From assembly GCA_949987565.1 (NCBI GenBank), contig OX465116.1:1341001-1405000 (forward strand): a stretch of 64,000 nt of DNA, written 5' to 3'. The stretch comes from Luidia sarsii. Its lineage: Eukaryota; Echinodermata; Asteroidea; Paxillosida; Luidiidae. Positions 9,001-58,113 of the stretch are shown here, piece after piece. The first letter of the stretch is position 1, and each line of letters starts with the position of its first letter. The notes under the pieces are model-generated. The model was not told the DNA's origin and did no database searches. It worked only from the letters and a program-made list of their open reading frames with translations. The position numbers and the translations under genes are program-made.

Positions 9001-12000
9001 AGTTGGTTTGTCGATCAATTCTTCAGTCGCTTGATTGATTAGTAAGATCGTTGGTTGATTGATTGAACGGTTGAACATGCAGTCTGTCAGTCACTCAAAT
9101 GGTTTGTCAGCAAGATGGTTTGTCAGTCATTTGGACGGTCGGTCGATTGGTCAAGCGGTTGGTTGGTCAGTAAGATGGTTAAGCGATCGATTAAGCGCTT
9201 GATCATGCAGTCTGTCAGTCACTCAAATGGTCTACCGATCAGATGTTAGGTTGTTCAGTCGGTCAATCAGTCGATCTTGTCGATTGGAGGAATCATTCCT
9301 CTTTTTTGGTAAAAAATTAATCACTTTTTACAAGCTTTTTACAAACAGATTCAGATTTTTGGGTCAGTAGTGATTCCTCTGTGATTCCTTGTGTTCCTTT
9401 AAGATAGGTTGGCAGCTATGATGCTTTTTCTTATGACATACTTTTCAAACCTCCCCGCCTACCACTGCCAAATCAATTGCCGCCGTTAGGTTCAGATGCG
9501 GCAGCTGCAGGACGACCACCGCCGGGCTCTGGACTCGCTGCAGCACCAGCTGGAGATGACGGAGAACCAGCTGTACCGACTGCAGCAGGAGCAGCAGCAG
9601 CAGCTGCAGGCGCTGTCCCGTGGACAGGGGGCAGCGGCGAGGAACGGCGACGCCAAGGACGGCCCGTCAGAGGCCTCACGACTCACCTTAGAGGAGAGGG
9701 AGCAAGGGGAGGTAAGGAACCACTCCATCTCTCACTCCATTCTGACCCCCCCCCAAAAAAAAAACCCCAGAAAGTATAGTATGACTCAATGAAGGTTTGC
9801 CTTGATATCAGATATCTAGAAAGCACTTCCTGCCTAATGCTTGTGAGCAATCGTCGGTGTTTACTTATCGTCCTCAAAAGAATTGGGTTGACAGCCAAAG
9901 GTCCACTTGTATTTCATGCGAAGCAACGGATATTGGAATCCAAGTCAAGTGCAAGAAGCATCAAGTGAAATAGGCTTGGCAATCTCGTTCTAAACATTGA
10001 AGAAATGCCTTTCTTAGCAAATGTTCACGCTTAAGCAGCTCAAATTTTAGTGGGCCTGACGTTTCGATCCTAGCAGGACCTTTCTCAAAGGCAGAGTGAC
10101 GAGGATAACACAGATACATGTACAGGAAGGAGGGGGGAAGGGCATCTTAATGAAATTAAGCCCCGAAGGATGATTTGTACAGCAAAAGAATTGTCTGTAG
10201 GGTTACTGCAAACTGACTCACTGCCTCCACCACTAGTTGCCGGAAACCTGATCAGATTTTTGTTTGGGGCGTTTGACGCTGGCTCGGCAGGGCATGGAGA
10301 ACACGGAGACAGAGGCCAGTGGGACGGGCAAGCCACGGCTGTCCTCGACGGCCAGTGGCACGGGCGTGGTGCCCCTGGCCCAGTTGCTGAGCGAGTCGCC
10401 GTCGGCGATAGCGGAGGCCCCGCCCAGCGTGGCCAGCCTGCTGGGCTCCACGGCCGAGGAGGAGCACCTACGACTGGAGCTGGCCGCGGCACGCAAGAAA
10501 CTGGACCACTCCAACGAGGTAAGAGATGGGACTCAGCTGTGAGCACTAGTGTCTGGGAGGTAGCCTGAACCTCTGCTCCAACCACTTCTGTCTCTCTCTT
10601 TGTCTCCCTCTGTCTCTATGTCTCTCTCTGTCTCCCCCTGTCTCTCTCTGTCTCCCTCTGTCTCTCTGTGTCTCCCTGTCTCTCTCTGTCTCCCTCTGTC
10701 TCTCTGTGTCTCCCTGTCTCTCTCTGCCTCTCTCTGCCTCTCTCTGCCTCTCTCTGTCTCCCCTGTCTATCTCTGCCTCTCTGTCTCTTTCTGCCTCTCT
10801 CTGTCTCTCTCTGTCTCTCTCTGCCTCTCTCTGTCTCTCTCTGCCTCTCTCTGTCTCTCTCTGCCTCTCTCTGTCTCCCTCTGTCTCCCCCTGTCTCCCC
10901 CTGCCTCTTTCTGCCTCTCTCTGGCTCTCTCTGTCTCCCCCTGTGTCTCTCTATCTCCCTCTATCTCCCTCTATCTCCCCCTGTCTCTCTCTCTCTATCT
11001 CCCTCTATCTCCCTCTGTCTCTCTCTGTCTCTGTTTCTCTTTGTTTGTCTCTCTCTGTCTCTCTGTCTCCCTCTCTCTCTGCTGCTCTGTCTTTCTCTGT
11101 CTCTCTCAATCTCTCTGTTTCTCTCTCTCTCTGTCTCCCTCTGTCTCTCTTTCTCCCTCTCTCTCTGCTGCTCTGTCTCTCTCTGTTTCTCTCTGTCTCC
11201 CTCTCTCTCTGTCTGTCTCTCTCTGTCTCCCTCCATCTCTCTCTGTCACTCTCTTATAATCAGGAACAATAAATACCTGTGAAATAAATCAGCAAAAGTA
11301 CATTATGAGTACAAGTGTGTCAAACGTGGCACAATCAGATGTCTGTGTGGCTTTTTGTCACGCTACAAATTGCTTTGTGGTAGGATGGAAAGAGTCTTGC
11401 TTGAAAACTTGGACAATAGTGGTTCCCGGATACGGACGGCCCATCATTTGATGAGGCCGAGGTCGAGCTCAACTTGGAGTGAAGAGACAGTCTATGGCTG
11501 CCTGATGGGATGGCCATTCTTTTGTTTTGGGTTTGCTTCAGATCATGAGTGACAACGAAGCGACCATCATGCGTCTGACGGAGCAGGCCAAGGTCCTGAA
11601 GGAGGAGATTCGGCGGCTGGAACGAAACCAGCAGCGTGAGGGCGCTATATCCAATATGGAATACCTGAAGAATGTCGTCTTGAAGGTAGGAGGGCTATAA
11701 CCAGTGTGAATGTGAAGAGCGCCCTCTATGGTCCTCATTTCTCTCTCTCTTCTTTTCTCTCTTTCTCTCTTTCCCTCTCTTTCTCTTTCGCTGTCCAAGT
11801 CAGCTCACCTCTCACGTTTAAAAAAAAACACCATTGATACAAATAATGTGTTTTGTAATGAAGTTTTCTTTGTGCATTACTTAACTTACTTCAACAAGTT
11901 TATGAAAAATACTTAATTAAGTAAGCTTAACTTTCGTCTCTTAGTGGGTTTGTCATCCATGGAACATTAAGCAACCACGTGCGTGATATATGATGCTTTG

Positions 12001-12676
12001 AAGTTACCCATGTCATATGATCATTCATTAACAAAAGTGAATGTTCTCCTCTCAGTTCCTAGTTCCAGCGCAGCCCGGTGAGAGGCAGCATCTGGTCCCT
12101 GTCCTGACTACCATGTTGAAACTCAGCGACAAGGAACGCCAAGATATTCTGGACACGATGGAGGGTTAGTCTGAACAATGCCTGACTCCTGACTCTTCTC
12201 CTCTCCTCTCCTTTCCTCTTCCTCTTCCTCCTCTCCTCTCTTCCTCCTCCTCTACCCCCCTCCTCATCTCCTCATCTCCTTCTCGCCCTCCCCCTCTTCC
12301 TCCTCTCCTCCATTCCTCTTCCTTCATTCTAAGCATTTATAAAAAGTTTAATTCCACCACAGTTCTGGTTTAAGGTCAAGTTTCATAATAATGATAAAAG
12401 TATTTGTTATTTCTAATCAGCTGTTATTGTTCTTATAATATTATTATTATAATATTCTTCCACATTCCTGAAAGAGCCTAAAGAAAGGTCCTGCTAGGAT
12501 TGAAACGACATGTCCTCGGTTATTTCAGACAGGGTACGGTATAATTTTATTAGTTGGTTAATTATTTAATTCCTTTTTTATCTCCCCACTCTAAAGGTGA
12601 AGAAAGTGTGGCATCTGGAAATGAGTCCAATAAGTGGGGCAGCTACTTACATCGCTGGTCTGGAGGCATAGTGTGA
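1..12676 (+). CDS. GCC2: GRIP and coiled-coil domain protein 2-like golgin (3' part, 20 exons)
   Basis: A trans-Golgi tethering protein. In the GCC2/GCC185 family the long coiled coil captures endosome-derived vesicles and the C-terminal GRIP domain binds Arl1/Rab GTPases. Exons read: <1-1214, 1675-1738, 2333-2433, 3011-3130, 3328-3383, 3603-3651, 3995-4186, 4677-4769, 5521-5683, 6418-6518, 6968-7093, 7303-7434, 7535-7668, 8003-8125, 8822-8924, 9496-9711, 10291-10518, 11542-11685, 12056-12164, 12597-12676. All junction phases agree and give 1181 residues. The first exon is open to the window edge, so the N-terminus and promoter lie outside. The protein is Glu/Lys/Leu/Gln-rich heptad coiled coil. 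GCC2-like blocks include KAQKLRSLAMKVKKELEQ (exon 3), KMKAMLMKTKKDLADAKKA (exon 10), VRVHSVLKQQK (exon 13) and IRRLERNQQREG (exon 18). GCC2 identity is confident; it is the recognisable golgin order, not just generic coiled coil. Confidence 0.9.
2460..2823. repeat. Family B fold-back element (long inverted repeat)
   Basis: Two arms of about 180 bp, roughly 2460-2635 and 2641-2823, are near-perfect reverse complements that meet at a short spacer. Each arm holds the motif AGAGCCGGTAACTCAACG next to a GGGCAG..CTGCCC hairpin and a segment reading GGTGACACCATGTA. It lies inside a GCC2 intron. Diverged single-arm copies recur at 3708, 8540, 16860, 23330, 31430, 46560 and 55860. Confidence 0.8.
3708..3905 (+). 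repeat. Family B partial copy
   Basis: Single-arm copy matching the left arm of the fold-back at 2460-2635 (GAAGGTTTGCACGGTGGAAA, then AAAAGAGCCGGTAACTCAAC and CAGGAGACTGCTGGATTC). It sits between two GCC2 exons. Confidence 0.7.
4850..5025. repeat. Family A palindromic element
   Basis: Two inverted copies of the family A motif (GTTTCGATCCTAGCAGGACC and its complement) meet at about 4907-4915. The tail TTTTGGTAATTTTAGTCAGT, then AAGCAGTTTGCAACATTTTT, is shared with copies at 26400 and 50540. Intronic in GCC2. Confidence 0.75.
5690..6330. repeat. Family C tandem hairpin units (about 105 bp, ~6 copies)
   Basis: Six diverged units spaced about 100-110 bp apart. Each has CACAAGYCTATGGGA and, about 35 bp later, its complement CTTCCATAGACTYGTGTG, so every unit can fold into a hairpin. 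Same family as 58683-59085. The array fills the GCC2 intron between exons 5521-5683 and 6418-6518. Confidence 0.75.
7755..7985 (+). repeat. Degenerate AGTCAATC repeat in a GCC2 intron
   Basis: Irregular runs of CAGT/CAAT words (AGTCAATCAGTCAGTC type) ending 18 bp before the exon at 8003. A similar degenerate array is at 8945-9280, after the next-but-one exon. Confidence 0.6.
8540..8665 (+). repeat. Family B partial copy
   Basis: Contains GAAGGTTTGCATGGT, AAAAGAGCCGGTAACTCAAC and GTCGTCAGGAGACT. Intronic in GCC2. Confidence 0.6.
8945..9280 (+). repeat. Degenerate GTCAATCAGT/GGTTGGTTG repeat
   Basis: Low-complexity intronic DNA built from TCAGT, TCAAT and GGTTG words, with an internal duplication of AGTCTGTCAGTCACTCAAAT (about 9080 and 9210). 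Confidence 0.55.
10045..10115 (+). repeat. Family A copy
   Basis: AAATTTTAGTGGGCCTGACG, GTTTCGATCCTAGCAGGACC, then TTTCTCAAAGGCAGAGTGAC. Intronic in GCC2. Confidence 0.7.
10588..11257 (+). repeat. (CTCTCTGT)n simple-repeat tract
   Basis: About 670 bp of CTCTCTGTCTC with TCCC and TGCC variants. It gives spurious Ser/Leu/Cys reading frames on + and Arg/Glu frames on -. It lies between GCC2 exons 10291-10518 and 11542-11685. Confidence 0.9.
11295..11500 (-). repeat. Family D copy (reverse)
   Basis: Reverse complement of the element at 13800-14035 (shared words TGTCTGTGTGGCTTTTTGTC, CTTGGACAATAGTGG). Ends about 40 bp before a GCC2 exon. Confidence 0.55.
11542..12676 (+). other. GCC2: GRIP domain exons of GCC2
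   Basis: The last three exons carry the GRIP domain. The first ends in MEYLKNVVLK, with the conserved Tyr of GRIP domains (known to be needed for Golgi targeting). Exon 12056-12164 reads FLVPAQPGERQHLVPVLTTM and then LKLSDKERQDI. The terminal exon encodes a WGSYLHRWSGGIV tail ending at TGA 12674-12676, close to the end of vertebrate GCC2. The domain is complete, so the protein should be Golgi-competent. Confidence 0.88.
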
Positions 12677-22306: not shown

Positions 22307-22999
22307 ATGACTGAAATGGTGGTGGAATCACCGGGTTTTCTCTCGTGGGGGGATCGCGGCAGCCGCACGGAGGACCAGACTGGGATGGACTGGAACGGCA
22401 ACCCGCGGGATGATGAGGCCGAGTCCGTTGAGGGCAAGGTGCTGGTTGCCGGGGACCCGGTACCGGAACGGGTGTCCGAGTTTCTCGGTAACGGGCCAGC
22501 TTCCGTCGGCTACTGCAGGGCGGTAGATGAGGAGACAGAACACCAGCCTAGGAAGGAGGAGGAAGTGGGTGAGGAGGGTGAGATGGAGGAGGAGGAAGTG
22601 GTTGAGGAGGGTGAGATGGAGGAGGAGGAAGTGGTTGAGGAGGGTGAGATGGAGGAGGAGGAGAGGGTCTCCGTCAAGCGCCTCATCCACGACTTCGAGT
22701 TCAAGGCCGGGACCGGGCACCGACTCGCTCCCGGCAGCCCCGCCGGCGTGCGCGTCGGAGGCCCTGCCGAGCCCGCCGTCGAGCTCCCGGTCACGGCCAC
22801 CGAGGACGGGGGGCTGACGTCCGCCTCTCTCCCGGCCAGCCTCCATCGTATCACCTCCACGGCCAAGCACGCGGTCAAGAACACTCTGTCAGCGGTCGAA
22901 AACGGAACGAAGACGGTCATTGGAGCGGTGGTGGGCGAGACCAAAGAGGTCATCCACCGGGTCAAAGATGTAGTCCGATTCGTTTTCCCTCTACCCAAC
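22307..22999 (+). CDS. First exon variant A of the PDZ-like gene
   Basis: Starts MTEMVVESPGFLSWGDRGS and ends VRFVFPLPN before the donor GTAAGT at 23000; 231 codons, phase 0. It is GC- and CpG-rich against AT-rich flanks. It contains three tandem copies of an 11-residue acidic unit (EEGEMEEEEVV, DNA about 22566-22665). It ends with a probable amphipathic helix (TAKHAVKNTLSAVENGTKTV, then IGAVVGETKEVIHRVKDVV) that could be a lipid- or protein-contact segment. The ATG is the first in a frame that stays open to the donor. Confidence 0.65.
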
Positions 23000-25900
23000 G
23001 TAAGTCCGATCAGTTCTTGTCCTCAATTTTCCCCAAACATTTCAAAAAGCTTATTTTCACAGGTACTGCTGGCGTGAATATCATTTCCCTGGATTGTCTT
23101 GTTCTGTTCTAAACCTGAGGTCTCGGGTTTGAATCCAGGTCAAGTCAAATCCCATTTTGCGTTTATTAATTCAGACGATTCCATATTGATTGCTGATCGA
23201 TGATATCGATTGATTCTATTATTTACAAAATGTCATTCATCTCTTGCGTTAAAAAAATACATACCCTACATACCCTACCTTTACCTCACTTGTCTAATTA
23301 AGTATTGAACTTAAGTTCTCAGATTGTCTTAGTTTCAGAACCACACATACTCACAAAAGAGAGAATTGTACATGGTGTCACCGCAAACCTATTACTCTTG
23401 TTATTCTCACCATGAAAACCTAGTACCTTCAAATCTCATTGAAGATTTGTTTTATTTACACAATAGATTATGAAACGGAGTTATACCATAAATAACTTGA
23501 AACAGAAAATAGCTCTAAGCTGTTGATTTTCTTTATCACATCCATCGCAAAAAAAAAACCCATCAAATTCGGGAGTTTATTACCGGTTTTGATTTACTCA
23601 CCTCAACATTTATCAGCCAATACCTGCTGGTATTATTTGGACTGACCTCGGTCAATTAAACAGCTCCATTTTTTTCCCCAAAGCCTTTTGAGGGTTTTTT
23701 TCGGAGCTCAGCGTATGGCACGGCCCAGTCAACCCACTGCAAGTCAAGATAGATTTCAATTCTAAACCATTGACATAATTCAACAGCTAAATATATTATC
23801 AACACAGTTTCTGGATATGCCAACAGGATACAGCTGATAACTTGGCCTGTGCGTTGACCTTTTTTGATAAATTGCAAATGACCCCTAAAAAAATTACAAC
23901 ATCGATTGTTGGTTGACATTGTGTCTAGACAGAGAATGGGTGAAAGAATTTTGTAAAATTAAAAGGTTTTTTACACTGGCGCCATTTGAACCCATTTCAC
24001 GACACCTATATTATTAATAGGTACGTGGATGCACAAATGTCACTACTGTATATACTTCCATGACTCCCTTTTCCAACATATTTTGGGTTGTTTTGTTGTT
24101 GTTTCTGTTACTACTTGCGCACTACTAGTAACCACGGCCAAAGTGGTTTAGGTCTGTGTCTCACAACGCGATGTTTACCCCACAACCTTAGTCTCCTCTA
24201 GCTTTGACCTTTGAGTCTGCCTCAGTGTCTGTTACCTTCAGGTTCAAGTAGTTATTGTCCTTTGTTTCTCATCCACGTCCTATTCACTCTCTCCCCCCTT
24301 CCTTCGTGTACATGTATCTGTTTTGGCCTTGTCACTCTGCCTTTGAGAAAGGTCCTGCTAGGATCGAAACGTCAGGCCCACTAAATTTTAAGAGTTATAG
24401 TAATATTAATAAAGTAATATAATCCCCCTGAAGTTCTTCGCTCAATAAAAAATTGCCTACAATCGCAGCAATTTGGTCGGTTTTACAACCACTTGCTGTT
24501 TGTGTCTGTGCGAGGGCAAACAAGTGGTATACCCCAGGAGATAATACAGGCCCTATGGCAGTTATATGGTTATATATACATAACGCGTGCTAGCGCCCGG
24601 ACGTATGGAAACACTCACTAATGAATAACAAAAGTGACGCCACTATTTCCTGGTAACACCGACATCCAGGAAAACACCGCTTCGGGAAGTGATCGCCTTT
24701 CATTTCAGTTTGCATTTAAAGGCCGATTCCTTAAAGGCCCTATACAACATTGGTAAAAGTGACTGTTTGTGTGTTAAACCATGGTTAACTTAACCGATAA
24801 ACATTCCAAAAAAGAAATCCTGCGAAGGTTTTTATATAAGCTCAAAATAATGGTAATCTGAGAAAGTAGAAAAAGGCAAAAAAAAAAACCCGTCACGCTT
24901 TTTGCACCGTTCTGTAGTGTAAGAAAGAGCCTGGGTTATTATCACTCGCGAGAATATATTTATTTTGTCGATGTTTGAGTGAAGATTTCTAGGGAAGTAC
25001 AGCATCCCAGACCGTAAGATTTCAACATGAGGATTCTATCATGACCATCTACAAACTGTGTAAATTAGAAGGAAATCTGTGGACATGGTTGTTTTCCGAT
25101 CTTCCCAATGTTGTATTGGGCCTTTAAGTACTTACTACATTCAATGAATATTATCTGTCAATCTCCCTTCCTGGACTGTCTTATAAAGACAGCTGGCGGT
25201 TGCATAGTTCCCATTCTGACACGGGTACGTCACCGCGAGCAGTCGGAAGAACTATCTGTCGAGTACACGGTAAAAGTACAAGTGGTAACAGTTTTCCATA
25301 AATCGGACTGATAGACGGAATTACAAGCATGGCTGATGACAAGCCCACCGAGCACCCGTGGTCGCAGAGGAAGAGATCCGCACCGGCCGATCGTCGGACC
25401 GACACGGGCCGCGAGGACGATGGGGTCCGGGACTTGAAGACTCAACGGTCCGTGAGCGACGACCTGGCCCTGGGCAATCTGTGCCGGCTGGAGAGCGTTC
25501 CCGACGGCGGGGAAGGATCGGAGGACCGCGGCGGCCGCGTCCTCGCGACCGGTGAGACCGGTTGTGGTGGTGGTGGTGACGAGGCTTCGTCGGAGGAGCC
25601 CGGCGAGCCGGTGAGGGTGAGCTCGGAGAGGGCCGCCGGTGAAGACGCGATCGACGGCGGGTTCTTTGAGGAGCTGCTTCACAAAATGGAGAGGAGATTT
25701 TGCAAGATTACCAAGCAACTCACGGAGACTTTTCGGAAGATTCTTCCCCTTCAGGTTATACGGGAAATTAGTTATTCTGTATATTGTTTAACAGTGTTCC
25801 TGTGTTTGTTCTTTTCCTTCTCCTCTTCCTCCTTCAGCTTCCCTCTCATCCTCCTCCTTCGGCCCCTCCTCCTTCTCCCTCCTCCTCCTTCTCCTCCTCC

Positions 25901-28900
25901 TCACTCCTCCTCCCCTCCTCTTCCTCTTCCTCCCCTCCTCTCCTCTTCCTCTTCGCACCTCGATCCTCCTCCTCCTCACTCCTCCTCCTCCTCCTCACTC
26001 TCCCTCCTCCTCATCACTCCTCCTCCCCTCCTCCTCCTCCTCCTTCTTCCTCCTCCTTCCACCAGAGCCAAAGGCAAGAAGGTCTTGTGGAAGAGTTGGA
26101 TGAAATCAACTCCCGTGTTCCAGGAGGATACAGATGGCTGATACTTGTTCTTCACAATAATCATTTGTTTCCCCTTCCTCTGAATAGAACTGCTTGGAAG
26201 ACAATCCATTCAACAACATCCACGTGCCCCATCCGGACAGGGCCAACGGCTTTGGAATGGTTGCACTCGGCATGAATATTCAGAAGGAGGACAGAGGTCA
26301 CCGGGTTCACGTCCTTCGTGACGGTCTGGCACACAGAGCCAAACTCCAGTGAGTTGTTCCTTTGAATTCCTTTGAGAAAGGTCCTGCTAGGATCGAAACG
26401 TCAGGCCCACTAAATTTTAAGATTTACATTTTGGTAATTTTAGTCAGTAAGCAGTTTGCAACATTTTTGTATATCACCTTTGAATTCCTAGTGTGTAAAA
26501 CTGAGTTACAATCGTCATACATATCTTGGCTTGATCTTCGCTCATCAGTGGAAAGGGCATCTTAACTTAGGTTTATGTTGGGGTTGGTTTGAGTTGGGTT
26601 GGTTTGGGTTGGGTTGGGTTGGGTTGGGTTGGGTTGGGTTGGGTTGGGCATGGAGGTAGAGGAGGGACCTCCATGGTTTGGGTTGTGTTGGGTTGGGATG
26701 GGATGGGTTGGGTTGGGTTGGGTTGGTTTGGGCATGGAGGTAGAGGAGGGACCTCCATGGTTTGGGTTGTGTTGGGTTGGGATGGGTTGGGATGGGTTGG
26801 GTTGGTTTGGGCATGGAGGTAGAGGAGGGACCTCCATGGTTTGGGTTGTGTTGGGTTGGGATGGGTTGGGTTGGGTTGGGTTGGTTTGGGCATGGAGGTA
26901 GAGGAGGGACCTCCATGGTTTGGGTTGTGTTAGTTGGGATGGGTTGGGTTGGGATGGGTGGGGTTGAGTTGGGTTGGGATTGGTTGGGTTGGGATGGGTG
27001 GGGTTGGGTTAGGTTGGGATGGGTTGGGTTGGGTTGGGTTGGGTTGGGTTGGTTTGGGCATGGAGGTAGAGGAGGTTTGGGTTGTGTTGGGTTGGGATGG
27101 GTTGGGTTGGGTTGGGTTGGGTTGGGATTGGATTGGTTGGGATGAATTGGGTTGTGTTGGGTTGGGTTGGGTTGGGTTGGGATGGGTTGGTTGTGTTGGG
27201 TTGGGTTCGGTTGGGTTGGGTTGGATGAGGTTGGGTTGGGTTGGTTGGGTTGGGTTGGATTGGGTTGGGTTGGGTTGGGTTGGGTTGGGTTGGGTTGGGT
27301 TGGGTTGGGTTGGGTTGGATGAGGTTGGGTTGGGTTGGGTTGGGTTGGTTGGGTTGGGTTGGGTTGGGATGGTTTGGTTGTGTTGGGTTGTGTTGGGTTG
27401 GGTTGGGTTGGATGAGGTTGGGATAGGTTGAGTTAGGTTAGCTTTGGGTTGGATTTAGTTTGGTTTTGCTGGAACCTACTCTCTAATGGATTAATCAGGG
27501 AACGTGTAAATAAATTATCTGGGTCACTGTGTCAATCAATCCACAAAGTTCAAACATGACATTCTTGTCTCTGGAAGCTAGAGAATAGATACCATCAGCA
27601 GGATATCCTGGCTCTAACCACATACCGGTATTGCTGGCTGGTATTGGGTCAGGTACTGTCACAGTCTCTACAAACCTGGTCCCTAGTCCCTTTGCCCTCA
27701 TTTCCTGTTTGGTTGGTTTTTCTTTCTGCTTACACAGAGACAATGACATCATCGTCGCTGTCAACGAGCAAGACGTGCAGAATTGGGAGTTTGAGAGCCT
27801 GCAGGAGTTCTTTGGGAACTTGGAAGAACTAGAGATCAAGCTGGTGGGTTTGCAGTTTTAACAGTTTGTTTGTTTTCGGAATATTTTTGTCTGAAACAGA
27901 TAGACAGTTTATATAATGGCAACTGAGGGGTAGTGCTTAAAGACTGGTAGTGATAGATCAGGGTTTGGATAAAGTTAATCTGACACAGATAGTAGATAAT
28001 GGCAACTGGGGGGATAGTGCTTAAAGACTGTTAGTGATAGATCAGGGTTTGGATAAAGTTAATCTGACACAGATAGTAGATAATGGCAACTGGGGGGGGG
28101 GGTAGTGCTTAAAGACTGGTAGTGATAGCGGTGGTAGTGCGGTTTGGATGAAGGTTAGGGGGACCATGAATGTAGGAATAAGCCCTTTTCAGACGATGCT
28201 GGAAAAACTCGCAAGGCTTGAGAGAGAATTTTCGAGCATTGACACGGCACAGTGTAACATTTCGGAGGTTCGGACTTACACCCAAATCTCTCAAGGGTTC
28301 ACGAGGGATGTCTGTCACTCTCTCAAGCATTGGTAATAACCTTTCACACGATGGCACTTTTGTAAGATTCCTCATGCATGAGACATTTTCTCAAGCCTTG
28401 TGAGTTTTGTTTTTCAGCGTCGTCTGAAAAGGCCTATAGCCTCTTTGCCATTTGGACAGTGGTTGTGCCCGAATCTGAAAAGACTGGGTGTGTAGAATCA
28501 CCATCGGTGCTCTGAATTTGGAGGTCCCCGTCTGCAAAGTGGTTAACCCGCTCCATAGCCGCTTTGTATAGAACCGTACGTGGCTGGCCAGTCCTCGTCT
28601 TAGTCAAGCTCTTTTGTCAACAACTCGCCGTCCATTTTACATTGTAGTCGGTGGAACGCAAGGATGAGGACTCTGAGGACTCTGAGGACGGGGAACCAGT
28701 TTACAAAAAGCTCACCATTACCATTCGGCTGAAATTTGAAGGTAAAACCTCATTCTCACTGGACTGAATAGTACAAGTATCAATATTTGGCCATTAGCAC
28801 ACACACACACACACACAAAAGTGAGAAAAGAGAAATTGGCTATCCTTCCCCCCCTCTTTTGCACACAGGTGACACAGTTGTAGTGGAAACTGAAATCACC

Positions 28901-30730
28901 TACAAGGCTTTGAGTTGGCGCTTTGCCAGCGAGATAGAGCCCCACTATATCTTCCAAAATGATGGCCACTCCAACACCAAGTACCTCATGTACAAGGACG
29001 GATGCTTCTGTATGTCATCACCCAGCGATCTCACACCCTGTAAGTTTTCTTGCTTTCCTTCTTAGCGTTTGCCGACGCTCGATCGACCCTTGTTCTAGTT
29101 ACAGCGGCCTCATTGATCACCCCCGGGCCTTCAGATAGAGCCACAGGCCTCTTTGATATGCAAGGCTGGCTAGCCTATCTGAGTCTGATAATCCGAGATC
29201 CATTTCAAATACTCCCCTTGGTCTAATTAAAGTCACTCAGTTTCCACATCTGATTGAACAATGGCATCACTTGCACTGTCGCTGGAATGACATTATCTGG
29301 GCTAGGAAGTAGCCTTTAAGAGTAAGTGTATTTGGACTCAAGATCAACCACATGGCCTCACCATCTGGGAGGGGAATGACTCCCACCATCCTTGTTGACG
29401 TCTGCACTAGAAAGCGGGAGTCACGGGTTCGAATCCCTCCCGAGCTGCCAGATATTTTGTTCATTAGGATATTGAAGCAAAGCACTGATGAGCATTCAGT
29501 GTTTATCACGTCGAGCAGGGCAAAAACCTCATTCATTGATTCATCCTTGTTTATCGCACTTACCGGGTATATCAAAGTCAGTGAGCCGTGTGTGACCTTT
29601 TCTTGCTCCGTTTCTTCTGCTTTGCACATTCACCAGGCAAGTTCAAGCTGCTGAGCTACAGCCCAAACTACAATATCCCCAGGGTGTTCTTCAACATCAC
29701 CAAGGACAGACCACTGGACGCGGACAAAGACAACTACATTGTACGTTGATCTCACGACTAGTTGGTTATATAACTAGTTGATCTCATGGCTAGTTGATCT
29801 CACAGCTAGTTGATCTCACAGCTAGTTGATCTCACAGCTAGTTGATCTCACAGCTATAGTTGATCTCACAGCTAGTTGATCTCACAGCTAGTTGATCTCA
29901 CAGCTAGTTGATCTCACAGCTATAGTTGATCTCACAGCTAGTTGATCTCACAGCTATAGTTGATCTCACAGCTAGTTGATCTCACAGCTAGTTGATCTCA
30001 CAGCTAGTTGATCTCACAGCTAGTTGATCTCACAGCTAGTTGATCTTACAACTAGTTGATCTCACAGCTAGTTGATCTCACGGCTAGTTGATCTCACGGC
30101 TAGTTGATCTCACGGCTAGTTGATCTCACGGCTAGTTGATCTCATGGCTAGTTGATATCACAGCTAGTTGATCTCACAGCTAGTTGATCTCATGACTAGT
30201 TGATCTCATGACTAGTTGATCTCATGACTATAGTTGATCTCAAGGTTAGTTGATCTCATGAGTAGTTGATCTCATGACTAATTGATCTTAGGACTAGTTG
30301 ATCTCATGACTAGTTGATCTTACGACTAGTTGATCACAGGACTAGTTGATCTCATGACTAGTTGATCTCATGTCTAGTTGATCTCATGACTAGTTGATCT
30401 CATGACTAGTTGATCTCATGACTAGTTGATCTCACGACTAGTTGATCTCATGACTAGTCACGTTTTGTCTGCCCCTTTCTTTGTATGGGAATCCAGGGCA
30501 CCAACAGCAGTGACTTGTATGGGAAAGGGCTGGACATATTCAGCGACAGTCGATTCTTCTTCAGCCTGAGACAGGTGAACACAAGCAAGTTCACCTTTGA
30601 GCTGGCCTCACAAAAAGGTATGTAGCCAAAATGTGTCTGTCAGAGTGCACACTGGGACCCTTTATTGACAATGAGAGAGAGGGGGGACAGAGAGAGGGGA
30701 GACAGAGAGAGCGGGGAGAGAGAAAGGAGA

Positions 30731-30769
<39 letters not shown>

Positions 30770-30782
30770 AGAGAGAAAGGAG

Positions 30783-30821
<39 letters not shown>

Positions 30822-30840
30822 GAAGACAGAGAGATAGAGA

Positions 30841-30871
<31 letters not shown>

Positions 30872-30931
30872 GGGAGAGAAAGGAGAAGATAGAGAGAGAG
30901 AGAGAGAAAGGAGAAGACAGAGAGATAGAGA

Positions 30932-30987
<56 letters not shown>

Positions 30988-31044
30988 AGAGAAAGGAGAA
31001 GATAGAGAGAGAGAGAGAGAAAGGAGAAGACAGAGAGATAGAGA

Positions 31045-31086
<42 letters not shown>

Positions 31087-31269
31087 AGAGAAAGGAGAAG
31101 ATAGAGAGAGAGAGAGAAAGGAGAAGACAGAAAGAGAGAGAGATAGAGAGAGAGATAGAGAAAGAGAAAGGAGAAGACAGAGAGAGAGAGAGAGAGAGGG
31201 GGGAAGGAGAAGATAGAGAGATAGAGAGAGAGAGAAAGGAGAAGACATAGAGATAGAGAAAGAGAGAGT

Positions 31270-31337
<68 letters not shown>

Positions 31338-31745
31338 AGGAGACAGCTAGACAGGGGAGAGAAGAGAGCGAGGGAGGAAGAGATTGAGAGAGAGGGAGGG
31401 GAACCAAAAAGTTGAGTGAAACCCTTTGGTTCTTTTCAGAACCACACTCACATTCAAGAAGAGAAGAGCTTCCCGTACACGCTGTCACCTCAAACCTACT
31501 CTTTATCAGTACCGCCACCAAGTCTTATGCGTTGATCTGTCTGGCTTGACCACCTCCTTCCTGTCCCATCCCCAGACCACTTCCTCGTGGCCACCAAGGA
31601 GGGCAAGCTGACCTTGCAGAAGTTCAAAGACATCAACTCGGTCACCTCCGTGGGCCTGTTCGACATGGTCCGGTCGTCCCTGGTGAAATACGACGGAACC
31701 GGCAAGGACAAGGGCACGGGAAAGCCAAACTTGTGGCAAAAATAA
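22307..31745 (+). CDS. Unrecognised protein: PDZ-like domain plus candidate IL-1/IL-18-type beta-trefoil
   Basis: Shared exons: 26188-26348, 27738-27843, 28648-28741, 28869-29039, 29637-29740, 30497-30617, 31576-31745 (TAA 31743-31745). They encode 308 residues in consistent phases. A phase-0 first exon at 22307-22999 (231 codons) or 25329-25754 (142 codons) precedes them, giving 539 or 450 residues. Exons 2-3 look like a PDZ domain: HRVHVLRDGLAHRAKLQDND, then IIVAVNEQDVQNWEFESLQE. Next comes an acidic linker (DEDSEDSEDGEP). The last ~200 residues alternate hydrophobic strands and turns. RFFFSLRQVNT and FTFELASQKDHFLVATKEGK followed by LTLQKF resemble the C-terminal strands of IL-18/IL-1 cytokines. 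No signal peptide or membrane segment is visible, as in IL-1-family precursors. An FGF- or fascin-type trefoil, or an unrelated beta-rich fold, is possible. The exon model is confident; the function is not. Confidence 0.72.
23000..25328. other. Intron/intergenic DNA between the two first exons
   Basis: No further exon seen. It contains a B-box-like SINE fragment (23118-23155), a family B fragment (23330-23430), a family A copy (24335-24400) and AT-rich DNA. Confidence 0.5.
24335..24400 (-). repeat. Family A copy
   Basis: CTTGTCACTCTGCCTTTGAG, AAAGGTCCTGCTAGGATCGA, AACGTCAGGCCCACTAAATT: the reverse orientation of the copy at 10045. Confidence 0.7.
25329..25754 (+). CDS. First exon variant B of the PDZ-like gene
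   Basis: Starts MADDKPTEHPWSQRKRSAP and ends LTETFRKILPLQ before a weaker donor GTTATA at 25755; 142 codons, phase 0, so it joins the same acceptor at 26188. Like variant A it is GC-rich and hydrophilic, and it ends in a possible helix (FFEELLHKMERRFCKITKQL). It shares no clear sequence with A apart from the closing FPLP/LPLQ. I infer an alternative promoter; a cassette exon is less likely because no acceptor precedes the ATG. Confidence 0.55.
25820..26065 (+). repeat. (CTCCTC)n pyrimidine tract
   Basis: About 245 bp of CTCCTCC/TTCCTC immediately after first-exon variant B and ahead of the shared exon at 26188. Confidence 0.85.
26375..26480 (-). repeat. Family A copy with tail
   Basis: TTTGAGAAAGGTCCTGCTAG and GATCGAAACGTCAGGCCCAC, then TTTTGGTAATTTTAGTCAGT and the TTTGCAACATTTTTGTATATCA tail. 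Begins 27 bp after a coding exon. Confidence 0.7.
26585..27440 (+). repeat. (TTGGG)n array with 79-84 bp higher-order units
   Basis: TTGGG pentamers are interrupted at 26646, 26730, 26809, 26888 and 27056 by a cassette GGGCATGGAGGTAGAGGAGG (four of the five then read GACCTCCATGG, making a small palindrome). This is the complement of the GCC2 3' UTR pentamer. It lies in the intron before exon 27738. Confidence 0.9.
27895..28135 (+). repeat. ~83-bp tandem repeat, 3 copies
   Basis: TGGCAACTG at 27917, 28000 and 28084, with TAGTGCTTAAAGACTGGTAG in each unit. Intronic in the PDZ-like gene. Confidence 0.8.
29350..29540 (+). repeat. SINE-2 copy
   Basis: B-box-like GGGTTCGAATCCCTCCCGAG followed by CTGCCAGATATTTTG and GTTTATCACGTCGAGCAGGG. 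A reverse copy is at 40725-40850 and a fragment at 32195-32285. Intronic. Confidence 0.65.
29745..30465 (+). repeat. 16-bp satellite-like array (CTAGTTGATCTCAYRG)n
   Basis: About 720 bp and more than 40 units of CTAGTTGATCTCACAG/ATGA, with occasional TATAG insertions. It begins right after the exon ending 29740 and ends about 30 bp before the next exon at 30497. It fills almost the whole intron. Confidence 0.92.
30660..31400 (+). repeat. (GA)n purine tract
   Basis: GAGAGA runs interrupted by AAAGGAGAAGACAGA and GATAGAGAGA words, repeated at roughly 110-130 bp. It is followed by a diverged family B end at 31420-31500. Last intron of the PDZ-like gene. Confidence 0.9.
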
Positions 31746-38315: not shown

Positions 38316-41300
38316 CTAAAAGCCGAGAGGATGTTCGGCAAGCAGCCCCCCTGACTGCACCATGGCCTGCGAGATCTTGGGGACAGCCTCAAAGTTTTCC
38401 CGGCTGTGCTTGTCCTTGAGGGCCTTCAGGTTGTCCTCCACACGCTGAGAGGCGTCGTTGCAGAAGAACTGGCACATGGTGCGCTCATGCTCTGCCGACG
38501 GAAGGTTCTTATTCAGAGACCGAGAGGTCCTGTTCGGGTGTGAAGTGTGAAAAATAAACTGAATTATAAGTTGGAATTTACCTTGAAGGAGTTAATGGTT
38601 ACGTTACGAGACTGACAATGCTTGGCCAATGGCCAGTGTACAATTTTCGTAAGGGGTTGGGGGTTAACATAACGTTCGGAATGCTGTTTGGAACCTGGCC
38701 TGACCAACAACCGACCTCTTAAAAATGGCAGGTCAGGGGTCAAGGGGACCGGGGATCAGAGGTCAGCCTATGGCATCTGGACAACATGGCCAATATGGGC
38801 AGGTATGCCGATGGCTAAATTGGCTGATGCTGACTGGGAGAAGGGCAGGGTTTGGCAGGTCAGGAGGGTCACCAGGGGTCAGGGGTCATCACTGGGTGTC
38901 AATCACAAGAGGTCAAGACTAATGAAATAGCATGCCAACTGTGACCAGTCAGCTGTGGTGGGAGGATAGGGAAGGTCACTGTGGGTCATGGGGTCATAGG
39001 TCAGGGGGTCAGAGGTCAAGGGGGTCAAGCCTACCTGGACAAGGTAGCGACCATGGCGTAGATGTCAATGGCAGCGTCGGCCAGTCGCCACAGCTCCAGC
39101 TGCTTGTTGACCACATTCTTGCCGTGGCCAATCAGGATCTCCTCCACGGCCGTGGCAAAGTCGCCGGCGGCCTTGCTGGCCTGGTCGGCCGACGGCTGGA
39201 GCTGGGCGGGGCAGTGCTCGGCCAGGGAGGGGCCGGAGGTCATGCCCACCATCCGCTTGGCCCGCTTGTTGGCCTCCTCCATGATGACGCCCAGGTTAGT
39301 GGCCGGGCTCTTCAGGGCCTTCTGTAGCTCCTTCAGACGCTGACCGGCATTCTAAGGAGTTCCGAAAAAACGTTTAAAAATTAGGCGGGCCTGACGTTTC
39401 GATCCTAGCAGGACCTTTCTCAAAGGCAGAATGTTGGGATCCTAGCAGGACCTTTCTCAAAGCATAATGTTGGGATCCTAGCAGGACCTTTCTCAAAGGC
39501 AGAATGTTTGGATCCTAGCAGGACCTTTCTCAAAGGCAGAATGTTTGGATCCTAGCAGGACCTTTCTCAAAGGCAGAATGTTTGGATCCTAGCAGGACCT
39601 TTCTCAAAGGCAGAATGTTTGGATCCTAGCAGGACCTTTCTCAAAGGCAGAATGTTTGGATCCTAGCAGGACCTTTCTCAAAGGTAGAATGTTTGGATCC
39701 TAGCAGGACCTTTCTCAAAGGCAGAATGTTTGGATCCTAGCAGTACCTTTCTCAAAGGCAGAATGTTTGGATCCTAGCAGGACCTTTCTCAAAGGCAGAA
39801 TGTTTGGATCCTAGCAGGACCTTTCTCAAAGGCAGAATGTTTGGATCCTAGCAGGACCTTTCTCAAAGGTAGAATGTTTGGATCCTAGCAGGACCTTTCT
39901 CAAAGGCAGAATGTTTGGATCCTAGCAGTACCTTTCTCAAAGGCAGAATGTTTGGATCCTAGCAGGACCTTTCTCAAAGGCAGAATGTTTGGATCCTAGC
40001 AGGACCTTTCTCAAAGGCAGAACGTTTGGATCCTAGCAAAAGGAAGAGGATGATGATGATCAGGAGGAAAGGAGGAAGAGGTGATGAAAAGGAGGAAGAG
40101 GAGAAGAATGAGGAGGAGGTGTGCACCTCCACTCTTCAAAAGAAGAGCTTCCCAATCAAGGCCTCCTGGAACCAGCCAATAAGGTTCCACCTACCATCAG
40201 TCCAGTCAGCGAGATGAAGAGACGAAGGATATCATTGGTCCCTTCAAAGATGCGGAAGATACGAAGGTCCCTCATCACCCGCTCTAGCCCAGCATCCTAA
40301 AAGAATGAAAGAGGAAAATAATATACGAGACGAAGCAGGCAGACCATGTGAATCTTCCTGTTTCACAAACCGGGAGCCTTTAACCAAATTCAGAGCACCA
40401 GTGGTGCTGCTATGCACTTAGCCCTGTGAATCCGGGCACCACTATTGTCCCAAGTTTTAAACCAAAGACTCTTTTTCAGCCTCACACAAAACAAGATGTA
40501 GCCTGACAAAAGCCACACAGACGTCGGATTGTGCCAGGTTTGACTCGCTTGTACACAAAAGTGGCCTGGTGCAAAATGGTTGAAGCTGACGCTCAGGCTT
40601 GGTCTTCAGAGTCATTTCTCTTGCCAAGATGTCACAATTATTCAAAAACCACAGTATTCTCCCTGATGCTAGCCAGAAGCTTCCATAGACTCGTGTGCAA
40701 ACAGAAGCCAGAATGGACACCAACAGTTTGCCCTGCTCGACGTAATAAGCACTGAAGACTCAGTGCCCGATGCCTGATGAAAACATTTCAGGCAGCTCGG
40801 GTGGGATTCGAACCCGCGACTCCTAACCCATCATGTTATATCAACGACTGTCTGAACTGTGAGTCAGGCAGGACCATTCACCCAGTGGTTTTGTGTCATT
40901 CGGACACAGCTTGGAAAATAGCCCCGATTGGCAAACACGTACCTTCATGAAACCCATTCCACCATACACTTGGATGGCTTCGTCCGCAATCTCCCAAGCA
41001 GCCTCCTAAATATACGAAGAAACCATGGCCAAGAAAGGACAAATAACTGGTAAATTATAAACAAGTGATGTTGCAAACCGCTTACTGACTAAAATTACCA
41101 AAATGCAAATCTGATCCTAGCATTGAATCACATTCTCTCTCTCTCCCCTCCATCCCCTCCCTCCCCCTCCCCTCCCTCCCCTCCCTCCCCCCTCCCCTGA
41201 CTCCTCAGAACTCACCGAGGCAAAGATCTTGCCGATGGCAGCTTCAATCTGGAACTCGGTGGAGCCTGCGTCCATGTTGGCACAGATCATGTAAGCCATG

Positions 41301-44300
41301 GACTCCGTCACAAACTGCTTGACGGCCATGCGGGCCAGTTTCTCCTGAATCACACCAAAGCTGTCCAGCTTCTCACCAAACTGTGTGCGGTTGGCGGCAT
41401 GGTCCACCTACGGGAATGACGCAAGGTATGGGTCGGGGTTGGTTACTTGGGGATTAGAGGGTCTTGGATAGAACAATCCTTCCTTATTATCCTCATCTTC
41501 ACCAGCATCTTCTCCATTCAACACCATCATCACAATTAACATGCTCATTGTGCTAATTACCATCACCGCCATTACCTCTGTCATCAACACTCACCATGAT
41601 CATCACTATCACCACCATCATCATAACCTCTATCATCGTGATCACCATTATCACCACCGTCATCACCATCATCTCTATCACCATGATCACCACCATCATC
41701 ACCATCGCTTTCACCATCATCTTCACCATCATCATTAGCAACACCATAATCATCATCACTACCATCACCGCCACCATCGTACTCACCAACGCCATACTCA
41801 TCATAACCATTATCAACATCACTATCACGGTGAGTTTAGAGGAGATTTGAGCCAGGACACATTATTCCCACTTACAGCTTTCTTGATGAGTCCCTTCATG
41901 GTACCAGACAGGGCGGCGGCCATACCAAAGCGTCCGTTGTTCAGAATCTGCATAGCCACCTTGAAGCCACCGCCGATTTCTACAACGACCCGGAAAAAAC
42001 AACAACAACCCAAGAAAGGTAAGACCAAAAAAAGCAAACCAAGCATATTCTTTCTTGACGGCATTTCTGGAAGACGCAGGTGACTGCCATCAGTTGAGAC
42101 AGACAGGTGACATTTCACAGGTCTGGAGCAGAAAGCGACGAAGCCTTGCAGGAGAATAGTGAAATCTGGCTTCAACCGCCCAAACTGACAGCCTAGGGAT
42201 GATTCAACTTCAGGTGTATGACCCTCTCTTGATCTAACTCTAAGTGTACTCTTTTCCTAGCCTCAAGGAAAGATTCCTTGAGGAATCCTCGTTCAGAAAT
42301 CAGGCCAAACCAGAACTGACAACTACTGGAATCTCAAAGACTCCACGAATACAGAAAGTCGACTGTCCGATTGTTTGGGTTCCTTCCAACTCACCTCCGA
42401 GAACGTTTTCGACGGGGATTTTGACGTCCTCAAAGTAGACTTCGGCTGTGTTGGAGGCTTTGATGCCCATCTTCTTCTCAGGGGGTCCGCTGTGTTGGAG
42501 AAGAAAGACAATGGAATCAGGTGCAATGCATTTACAACCTTGTTCTCACCATTCTATTGCAATATCAAGCCACCTCTCAATCCAAATGCATGGCAAAGGT
42601 GTGGCAATAGTACTGACCTACAGAGCGATAGTTTAGAACAGCAAGTCAATATTTTATACCAGTAGGGCAAGTTCATACCTGCAGGGCAATAGTTCATACC
42701 TGCAGGCCAATAGTTCATACCTTCGGGCAATAGTTCACACCTACAGGGCTATAGTTCATACCTTTGGGGCAATAGTTCACACCTACAGGGCTATAGTTCA
42801 TACCTGCAGGGCTATAGTCCACACCTGCAGGGAAATAGTTCATACCTTCAGGGCAATAGTTCATACCTTCGGGGCAATAGTTCATACCTGTGGGGCAGTT
42901 GTTCATACCTACTGTGCAATACTTCATACCTACAGGCAAACGGGTGACAAGTGTACTGACCTGGACACCCCTCCGAAGCCTCGCTCCACGATGAAGGCTG
43001 TGATCTTGTCCCGTGTCATCCCCTCAGCATCGGTGACAGGTGTCTGCGCAAAGACGGTGAAGACCTCGGCAAAGCCACCGTTGCTGATCCTGTGTCCAAG
43101 CAGATATACCAAGGAAAATTTACAAGATGCAGACACAAGGACTCACAAGGTAACTATTTTGTGGGTTCTTTTGACAACACTGTGGTGCAGACTCCATAAA
43201 CTGGTACCCAGTAACCTCCATTACCTGGTACCCGGCGCTCATCACAGCTCGCTGGCATTCATGATAATAGTGCACTGCATGGTACCCTGCATTAGTGGTT
43301 CCTTGCTCAACCTGGTACCCTGCACTAACCGGTATACCTTTATTGCCTGGTAACCCACACTACCCAATACCATTACCACTGCCTGGTGCTCCGTATGCAC
43401 CACAGCTTGCAGCAATTCATATTGGTAGTGCACGACCGGTGCCCTGCACTACCCAATACCATTCTCACTGCCCGGTACCCTGCAATCACCACAGCTTGCT
43501 AACATTTGTGACGTAGAGCACAGGTAACCACCACTAATCGAGTACCCTAAGCATTATACGCTAGCTGCCCGGTACCCACCACAGCTTGCTTCCGTTCAGG
43601 ATGTAGTGCTTGCCGTCCTCGCTGACCACCGCTCTGGTGCGGATGGAGGCCGCGTCTGACCCGCTGGCGGGCTCCGTCAGACAGAAGGCAGCCATCTTCT
43701 CCCCTTTGGCCAGAGAGGGTAGGTACTTCTCCTTCTGCTCGGGGTTGCCAAACAGCAGGATTCCCTTGAAGCCGATGGACTGGTGAGCACCCAGGACAAT
43801 GCCGACGGCTAGATCGTACTCCCCGACAACCTCCACCATCCTGGCATACTGCGGAATAAATGTAGGTAGACAGGATCCACCAAGCTCTTGCAAACATCTT
43901 CTCCATCTCTCGTCTTCAAGCCTTCAAAGGCAGAGTACATAAATTTCTCCTTACATAATAAACCATATTTTGTTATCCTTTATTTTACCATCACTATAGT
44001 AATCTGGTCAGATGCTCTGAACTATTGATTGGCCTTAGGGAATTTTTTCTTAAAATCTGGAATGCTACTGTTCACATAAGCATTTTTTTTTTCCAAAAAG
44101 AACAAAAACAAAAACAGCTCTAACTAACTTAACCAACTTTAATGACCAAAATGCAAATCTCATAACTTTCTTTCTATCCTAACAGTAGCCTTCAAGTCAC
44201 TAGGAGAAGACTAGATGACTACCGGTGTTAGGGAAGGCCACCATTTAAGGGCTGGATAGCTCAGAGAGCACTGGTACGTTGATCCAGAGGTCTCGGGTTC

Positions 44301-47300
44301 AAGTCCCAATCCAGTCACAGTTTTCTTTGCCAATTGTTCAATGTATTCAAACCAAATCAGTTCAAATCTAATTTTCTGTTCACGGTCACACGGGAATGAT
44401 CCCCAATGGCTTGGGCTATGGACAGCCCATTGCTGAGTACGTGTGGATTAGGGTAGCCATAGCTGTAGGAGTTATTGGAGTCTTTCACAGCACCGATGGG
44501 ATTTGTCCATTACCTGGGTGTTGGTGAGGCCAAGACCGCTCAGATCCGTGGGCACTTGGAGTCCAAACGCCCCCATCTCTCGAAGCCCCTGCATGGTGTG
44601 GTCCTCAACCTTCTCCAGGGAATCGTTCTTGCCGGCGTCGTTCACCTCCTACCCAGGGCCAAAACAAAAAGGAAAAACATCGATTAGAAAACTCTTCACC
44701 AGTCTGTAACAGGCCAGGGGTGGATTTTACGATGCATCGTAACTCACTCTACCATGGATAACCCATCGTATGTTGTGATAGGCCGTATGGTTTCTGTGCA
44801 TCGCTTGTTGTCTTGCGATCGGTTGTAAGTTACGACGTGTTTGGTGAAATCGACCACAGGGTGGATTTCACAAAGCCTTGAAATGCATCGCAACTAATTG
44901 TACATTGGATAACCCATTGTAAGACGTGATTGGACATTGTTTCTGTGCTTTGCTTACAATCTTACGATTGATTGTAAGTTACGATGAGTTTCATGAAATC
45001 GACCACACAAGTACAATGAACAGCTCCAACCTCTCATCCACCACCTCCTCTGTCTCTTCCCCTACTCACCTCAAAGAATTTGTGTGTGGGCTCCACAAAC
45101 ATCTGTGTCTCTTCCGCCATTTCAGCACTCAGAACTGTAGGTGACAAACGAGGTTCCGTCTGAGTTGCACGCGTTTCAAAGACAAAACCATTGGGCGAAG
45201 GATCTCGCCCTGAGGTGGTCAACTCTGTCCATGAGTGATTGTCAAGTGAAAATGCACCCCCTTTCTTTCTTCTTTGATTGTATGAAAATAGCAAGGGCAA
45301 AATTACTGGAAATTCCAACTGCGGGTCTCTAGATGAAGATTAACAGCTTTCTACTGCCTGAGATATCCAGCCCTTAGATGGTGGCCTTCCTAAATAGGCA
45401 GCTATCTTTGCTGGGGTAACAGTGCCAGTCGGAAGCACTTCACCATTTCACAGCCATACATCTCCTGGGATCACACCCGAACTTGATCCAGAAGTCTTCC
45501 TTGTTATTTCCCTTATATCAGTGTATGTATTCTTAACCCTAACCGGCATTGAAACCACAATTAACCACACATGGTTTTTCCTGTGGGAGGATAAGGGCCA
45601 CACACCACGACATACCACAGCGGGTTTTTTGTGGTATCCTGTGGTATGTGAGCCTGCACCCCTGAGAGCACTGTGGTAAATTGTGGTATACAGTGTGTGT
45701 CCTGTGTGGGAGGTGCAAAGCGGTAGTGTTAATGTCACTTTCCTTGCATTTGTTTGCAAACTGCGATAGTGTCTACATTGGAGAGAGCAATGTGTCCGTC
45801 CGATGACTTCTTTAGCTCAGGACTTACCCTCAGGGTATGGAAAGACTTCCTGAAGATTGATCTCTCCCTTAAACAAACCCATGCCGAAAGAGTGCGACTC
45901 CTGGAGACCAAAAAAAAAAAGACACACCAAAAGCAATTCAATCTCAAAATTAATCTCACAAAACAGAAGTCAGGGTCAGAAACTCAAGCAGTATCTGCAC
46001 TGGAGTTCTCTGGGAGAGAAAAGATTCCATTTGGTAAATGAAATGAAAATCTCCCTATGAGAAAGATCTGCAATTGAGAAAGGTCCTGCTAGGATCAAAA
46101 TGTCAGGCCCTCCTTATTTTCGGTAAAAGTAAATGGTTGAATTTTACCAAACTTGGACATTTGACACAAGTATTTTGTCTGTCAAGACACTGGCCTTCAA
46201 TGTGAGAGTATCATTATGTAAAGGTGTAATTACTATTTTTGTTTTCAACCAGAATGCTAGGCTCTGTCACTGGCTGGATGTCCAACTAATGACGGTACTT
46301 GTATGTGTCATGCCAAGCCTCAAGAGTAAACCTTTCCCTGCTGTCTCGGGATGAAACTCTGAGTTTTTTCTTACCCTGGGCTTCTTCTGTGCGGGGCTGG
46401 ACTGCTTGGGCTCAGCCATGCTTGCCTTGTAGCGCTGCTGCAGGCTCCATGACGCCACGCTCGGCCTGGTCAATCAAAGAGCAAAGCAACACCAAATAAA
46501 AAATTACCACTTAACTTAGCTCTTAGGAACTGTCTACACTGGTCTTAATGCCCCACTCCCAGTTAGAATCCAGCAGTCTCCTGAAGACAAACAGAGTACA
46601 AGTTTTTCCGGTTCTTTTCAGAACCACACATACTCACAAAAGAATTTTGCATGGTGTCACTGCAAAACTATTATTTCAAGGCTGGATTTCACAAAGCCCT
46701 ACGATGCATCGTAACTCAACTTACGATGGATAACCCATCGTAAGTTGTGATAGGCCGTATGGTTTCTGTGCATCGCTCATCGTCTTGCGATTGATTGTAA
46801 GTTACGACGAGTTTGGTGAAATCGACCGCAGATAAGACAACTCCTGCCTTTATCAAATTTGCTTTGTTTTGGTTTGTCAACTGCCAAGTCGGATGGAACG
46901 ACCTTTGCACGTTCTATTTTTGACTTCACATTCACAGAAAGGAACTTATCACATTGCCCTTTGCCCCATGGATATTTAGATGAATTTTGTTTTCCTCATG
47001 CTGTGTTATTAGACAAAAATAGATCTACAAATGATTATTCTTGTGAAGAGAATGAGAAAATCTCCAGTAACACTAACAGTAACACTAACAGACAGTGAGA
47101 CACAGCAGTGCATTTACAAGTTATTACTTGATCTTCATAATCTTAGTCCACGAAAAAGAATCTTGTGTGGCTTTTACATTTACAACTACATGTAAACAAA
47201 CCATGAAAACAGAAATTATGTTACAAATGCAACTTGCAAGGCAGCAAATGTTCCCCTTTGCAATAAAGAGAGGCACTGTGGTCGTCGTAGGTCATAAAAA

Positions 47301-57400: not shown

Positions 57401-58081
57401 TTGACCCATGGCACTCGGCCACATCACTCTTGACCTCGATGACCCTTGACCCCAATATGGCTCGCTTTCTCCCACACACTATCACACATCCACCCCTTGC
57501 CCTGTGTGATTGCTAAGCCGCTGCATGCCTTATGTACGGTAGCAGCAATGGCTGTGAATATCATCTCAAGAGGGTTCTTCAGCCCAATGGCCAGCTGCTT
57601 AAAATAGCATAACGCATTGAGATGTCTCTCAGCAAATAATGCAGCTCAGATCGGATTTTAACCCACACTATTCTTCTGTCTGACATAGACATCTAACCAA
57701 ACTCCTTTCATTTGTCCCTAGTTACAAACCATTCCACTCAAGCTACCACATTTCCTGCTAACTCATACCCCTCTGCCTTTCCCATTTCAGAAATTAATGT
57801 TACTATAATTTTATAATATTGTTCTTTTGTCAGACAAGCAGCTTTGAATCATGATTTCTGTCAATTTGTTTCCAGTATCATTTCACATTTCACCTTGCTA
57901 CTGTTGCTGCTGTTGCAGTTGCTGCTGTTGCTGTTGTTGCTTCTGCTATTACTGCTGTTTATTTTGTTCCTGCTGTTATTGCTGCCATCAATGTTGCTGC
58001 TGCTGTTGATGTTGTTGATATTCCTGCTGTTGTTGCTGTTGTTGCTAGTGCTGCTGCTGTTGCTGTTATTGCTGCTACTGT

Positions 58082-58113
<32 letters not shown>

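Follow-up and report, generated by a model that had tools for sequence, protein, structure and literature searches.

A PDZ domain joined to a putative IL-1-type trefoil

The 64,000-nucleotide stretch of the Luidia sarsii assembly GCA_949987565.1 analyzed here (contig OX465116.1, positions 1,341,001 to 1,405,000 of the forward strand; hereafter the window) contains a plus-strand gene, the shared body of which (26188-31745) probably encodes a leaderless cytosolic protein composed of a PDZ domain, a linker and a beta-trefoil and represents a non-vertebrate relative of nIL-1F, an IL-1-family protein of fish. An IL-1-type trefoil in this protein is likely but unproven; it is suggested by a profile score, by the intron phases and, above all, by the make-up of nIL-1F.

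The gene is real. Its 7 body exons splice into an open frame of 308 residues ending in TAA, all 6 introns between them have GT-AG boundaries, and the phases are compatible across every junction, so that the 7 exons with matching phases and the shared body of 308 residues described in the original prediction stand. The third codon position has a G+C content of 0.58-0.88 in the individual body exons, whereas the introns taken together lie at 0.41-0.50. When the 470.9 Mb genome was searched exon by exon (E up to 0.001), 7 matches were returned, all corresponding to the gene's own exons; the gene is thus single copy at that search sensitivity. Body introns 1, 5 and 6 hold large minisatellite and microsatellite arrays (26581-27452, 29745-30458 and 30673-31398), in which GGGTT units, GA repeats and 44 copies of a 16-bp unit occur.

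The PDZ domain is encoded by the first 3 body exons. Exon 1 (26188-26348, phase 0 to 2) carries its first part, exon 2 (27738-27843, 106 nt, phase 2 to 0) its second part, and exon 3 (28648-28741, 94 nt, phase 0 to 1) its end, followed by an acidic linker at body residues 92-105 and the first strands beyond. The Pfam PDZ model (PF00595) matches body residues 27-91 with 30.3 bits, above the curated cut-off of 23.2, confirming what had been proposed as a PDZ-like first third. Since the match runs over the junction of exons 1 and 2, it also supports that splice. By inspection, GFGM at body residues 21-24 (exon 1) resembles the G-phi-G-phi loop with which PDZ domains bind carboxylates, and the domain therefore probably binds C-terminal peptides.

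Comparison with fish nIL-1F and other known proteins

The closest parallel to this make-up comes from fish. The lumpfish nIL-1F (MN689249) is described as a protein of 352 residues that combines an IL-1 domain with a PDZ domain and is encoded by 7 coding exons, and its clade is said to include teleosts, coelacanth and ghost shark, the authors assuming a loss in tetrapods (PMC7144542). A related report describes nIL-1Fm as devoid of a signal peptide and antagonistic to IL-1beta, in grass carp probably through competition for the receptor (PMC4929537). The pairing of PDZ and IL-1 has thus already been reported; in the literature covered, which excluded most subscription papers, the lumpfish study was the only one found to describe nIL-1F with a PDZ domain. 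Set beside this published description (domains, size and exon count), the window protein would share with nIL-1F the combination of a PDZ and an IL-1 domain, the lack of a signal peptide, a comparable size (308-residue body versus 352 residues in lumpfish) and a large number of coding exons (7 body exons plus 1 first exon versus 7 coding exons). It differs in that nIL-1F has a recognized IL-1 domain and the IL-1 signature, neither of which is found in the window protein, and in having 2 candidate first exons.

IL-33, when left out of the profile described below, scores similarly to the window protein and, together with IL-18, also fails the IL-1 signature. Neither IL-18 nor IL-33 is known to have a PDZ domain, and IL-18 showed no special likeness to the window protein. 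Pro-IL-16 is likewise a leaderless PDZ protein that acts as a cytokine, but there the PDZ domain itself is the released part and a trefoil is absent.

A possible IL-1-family match in the closing strands

By inspection, the C-terminal half can be divided into 12 putative strands. Strands 1-3 (HYIFQNDG, TKYLMYKD and CFCMSS) would fall within exon 4 (28869-29039, 171 bp, phase 1 to 1), strands 4 and 5 (KFKLLSYS and RVFFNITKD) and the start of strand 6 (DNYIGTNSS) within exon 5 (29637-29740, 104 bp, phase 1 to 0), and the rest of strand 6 with strands 7-9 (LDIFSD, RFFFSLRQV and KFTFELASQ) within exon 6 (30497-30617, phase 0 to 1), which carries the closing motif RFFFSLRQ..FTFELASQ. Exon 7 (31576-31745, phase 1 to stop) would provide strands 10-12 (HFLVATKE, KLTLQKF and VGLFDMV; HFLVATKEGKLTLQKF and GLFDMV in the exon), followed by the tail and TAA.

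A hidden Markov model of 11 human IL-1-family sequences, applied to the 178-residue region of body residues 106-283, gave 7.4 bits, with approximately 48 residues in exons 6 and 7 aligned at the closing strands. This score was reached by 3 of 4,200 shuffles in three runs (1/1200, 2/2000 and 0/1000). Smaller IL-1 profiles with 8, 4 and 2 members yielded 3.2, 6.3 and 5.1 bits, reached by 1, 1 and 0 of 500 shuffles, whereas the FGF and fascin profiles yielded 1.3 and 2.0 bits on the same region (50/1000 and 25/1000 shuffles) and a pooled IL-1 and FGF profile 5.7 bits (6/1000). As yardsticks, left-out family members earned 40.8 (IL-1A), 22.3 (IL-18) and 8.7 bits (IL-33), and non-members 1.8 (FGF1), 7.1 (FGF8) and 0.9 bits (fascin repeat 3); the PDZ part of the window protein earned 0.0 bits. 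A score of 7.4 bits would be expected of a remote trefoil cytokine, but FGF2, a non-member, earns more (12.8 bits). Of the IL-18-like trefoil envisaged in the original prediction, the part that gains support is the match of the closing strands to the 11-member profile, which exceeds that of nearly all shuffles; a preference for IL-18 over IL-1 generally was not found. According to PMC5861070, IL-18 and IL-33 are as distant from IL-1 as from FGF, and a separate origin is possible.

Intron phases agree with those of IL-1beta

With the first-exon junction counted, the intron phases of the gene are 0,2,0,1,1,0,1, which include the consecutive series 2,0,1,1,0. The same series, II,0,I,I,0, is given as typical of the IL-1beta coding sequence, with the 12 strands lying within the last 3 exons (PMC4880838). 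Body exons 2-5 (106, 94, 171 and 104 nt) leave the same remainders modulo 3 as the internal exons of pacu IL-1beta (73, 181, 168 and 137 nt; PMC7687281). With random phases, the series would occur somewhere among 7 phases approximately 1.2-1.4% of the time. IL-1beta resembles the window protein in its leaderless precursor, in this phase series and in a closing motif of the form RF.F....F.FE.A.....F, but it has no PDZ domain.

Evidence against an IL-1-type trefoil and alternative explanations

Several observations weigh against the relationship proposed here. Searches of Pfam, NCBIfam and PDB sequences returned nothing of weight for the last 200 residues, and the Pfam IL1 model (PF00340) matched neither the body (E up to 5) nor 2 C-terminal pieces (E up to 10). 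The hhalign comparison was weak (P 0.028, probability 1.8%), end-to-end profile tests did not separate IL-1 from FGF, strands 1-7 by themselves gave no signal, and FGF2 outscores the window protein on the IL-1 profile. The closing match had, moreover, been singled out by eye from the whole window, and the shuffle counts therefore carry selection. In the putative strand map, the boundary of exons 5 and 6 lies inside strand 6, displaced from that of IL-1beta, where the counterpart is located after strand 7, and the gene has an additional intron before strand 10. The window protein departs from the IL-1 signature (a PROSITE-type pattern) by 4 substitutions; 568 of 1,000 shuffles need no more than 4, IL-18 and IL-33 miss the pattern by 3 and 4 substitutions, and the distance from the signature is uninformative.

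The score for internal trefoil-repeat similarity was reached by 42 of 200 shuffles and is uninformative; for the known trefoils IL1B, IL18 and FGF2 the corresponding counts were 13, 12 and 3 of 60. A word-based protein search (nr and UniRef animals) produced 794 candidates for the body, none at E 0.1, and 148 for the C-terminal part within variant B, none at E 1; because this search requires common exact 5-residue words, relatives of low identity may be missed. Seven human IL-1 members used as queries retrieved 375 proteins, and among the 120 listed the named ones were mammalian and none was nIL-1F. The Pfam IL1 model found no match in the genome, nor in 14 control genomes, which renders this result uninformative.

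Two alternatives have to be weighed against a relative of nIL-1F. In one, which we consider improbable, the PDZ domain is combined with a beta-trefoil of another lineage (FGF-like, fascin-like or independent), the resemblance to IL-1 reflects convergence on the strand pattern, and the protein would function as an intracellular scaffold or an actin or lipid adaptor, not as a cytokine. The FGF family does have the beta-trefoil strand pattern and a similar end-to-end profile Z, but its local score on the window protein is at chance, and both the FGF and the fascin profiles fall below that of IL-1. The agreement of the intron phases with IL-1beta also speaks against convergence, as does the reported pairing of PDZ with IL-1. 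We know of no pairing of PDZ with FGF.

The other alternative holds that the PDZ domain is followed by an unrelated, lineage-specific region, all-beta or partly disordered, that the closing motif is due to chance, and that the gene encodes a PDZ adaptor of the ordinary kind. The absence of a family match of weight in the C-terminal half, the low hhalign probability, the restriction of the local match to approximately 48 residues and its selection by eye are all as this explanation would have it. Yet the match is located where closing strands are expected, it has a PDZ domain as its neighbor, an arrangement that nIL-1F shares and that played no part when the match was first picked out, and the intron-phase series agrees as well. 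On balance, we regard an ordinary adaptor as rather unlikely.

Candidate first exons and a possible mode of action

Two candidate alternative first coding exons, both on the plus strand and entering the body in phase 0, precede the body. In exon A (22307-22999, 231 residues) the frame stays open from its ATG up to a GTAAGT donor, and in exon B (25329-25754, 142 residues) from its ATG up to a GTTATA donor, which by eye is weak; the predicted variants A and B would comprise 539 and 450 residues. The product of exon A would consist of glutamate-rich repeats followed by a strongly amphipathic, 11-mer-like helix (about four 11-mers by eye), reminiscent of lipid-binding helices, and that of exon B would end in a strongly amphipathic helix at its C-terminus. 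The helix moments of the chosen tails (44 residues in exon A) were each reached by 4 of 5,000 shuffles. Within exon A, a 33-bp tandem repeat (22554-22662; 3.3 copies, 98% matches) encodes a glutamate-rich stretch. By eye, the N-termini of both variants are hydrophilic and display no visible signal peptide, in line with the earlier expectation.

Judged by its sequence, the protein would be a cytosolic precursor, which the alternative first exons may position, perhaps with their amphipathic helices at membranes, and which the PDZ domain may tether to the C-terminus of a partner. By analogy with nIL-1F and with IL-1 biology, cell damage, or a cut within the acidic linker, could release the C-terminal trefoil, which might then act on an IL-1R-like receptor of the Ig-TIR type, either as an agonist or, like fish nIL-1F, as an antagonist.

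Implications for the origin of the IL-1 family

A PDZ-trefoil relative of IL-1 outside vertebrates had been put forward as new. The pairing itself is known from the report on the lumpfish protein; its presence outside vertebrates would be new, provided that the fold is confirmed and the genome is indeed an invertebrate's. According to a review (PMC9020223), IL-1 has no known orthologue beyond the vertebrates, and PMC9382457 says the same of invertebrates and jawless vertebrates. The review also notes that invertebrates have IL-1R-like genes but not IL-1-like ligands, implying that receptors preceded ligands, and cites an IL-1-like activity from starfish (1986), such an invertebrate molecule never having been characterized. 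In the literature covered, which excluded most subscription papers, searches on the IL-1 family in amphioxus, echinoderms, Ambulacraria, starfish and lamprey listed no paper describing an IL-1-family gene from an invertebrate.

We tentatively raise the possibility, which we hold with less confidence than the relationship to nIL-1F, that the IL-1 family predates jawed vertebrates and arose from an intracellular PDZ-trefoil protein of an invertebrate ancestor, that nIL-1F keeps the ancestral make-up, and that the pro-domain of IL-1beta corresponds to the old PDZ exons. Conversion of these exons into the pro-domain would explain why the 2,0,1,1,0 series matches across both halves of the gene. If a PDZ-trefoil relative outside vertebrates is confirmed, it would be a candidate ligand, the PDZ domain of fish nIL-1F would be explained as an ancestral feature and not a later gain, and the question of how a major cytokine family arose would become directly testable.

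Neighboring genes and repeats

Downstream of the gene, a very-long-chain acyl-CoA dehydrogenase gene occupies approximately 38319-47590 on the minus strand; in one exon, 71 of 91 residues (78%) are identical to the PDB VLCAD chain 3b96. It is followed by a plus-strand gene for a SHIP-like inositol 5-phosphatase (approximately 50100-64000) with SH2 and phosphatase exons. Pairwise comparisons over 95 and 66 residues, with exon ends placed by eye, gave 46% identity of the SH2 domain to SHIP2 and 45% to SHIP1 from PDB (SHIP1 versus SHIP2, 55%), and 53% and 55% for the phosphatase piece (SHIP1 versus SHIP2, 62%). The gene thus appears about equidistant from SHIP1 and SHIP2, which fits a split preceding their duplication, an early vertebrate event, so that the genome is probably not that of a jawed vertebrate. 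A fish genome, in which the gene would just be nIL-1F itself, is considered unlikely; that the word-based protein search returned no relative of the body also argues against a teleost. At the other end of the window, a long coiled-coil gene on the plus strand (1-12673) has a GRIP-like end and resembles GCC2. In humans GCC2 is located on chromosome 2q12, but a possible microsynteny with the IL-1 gene cluster was given no weight.

A 33-bp motif (GAAAGGTCCTGCTAGGATCGAAACGTCAGGCCC and relatives, up to 5 substitutions) occurs at many places between 3442 and 59336, 10 on the plus and 8 on the minus strand, partly in facing pairs (4864/4912 and 50448/50494), and probably represents a mobile element in dispersed copies. 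A repeat motif of the window had 0 matches in each of the collections genome_contigs and viral_contigs. Other repeats, which have a tRNA-like 3' box (up to 9 substitutions in 46 positions), lie at 15489, 35174, 44286, 52189 and 52900 on the plus strand and at 2018 and 14674 on the minus strand. They would resemble tRNA-derived short interspersed nuclear elements, and ARAGORN assigned one of them (44250-44318) to tRNA-Asn.

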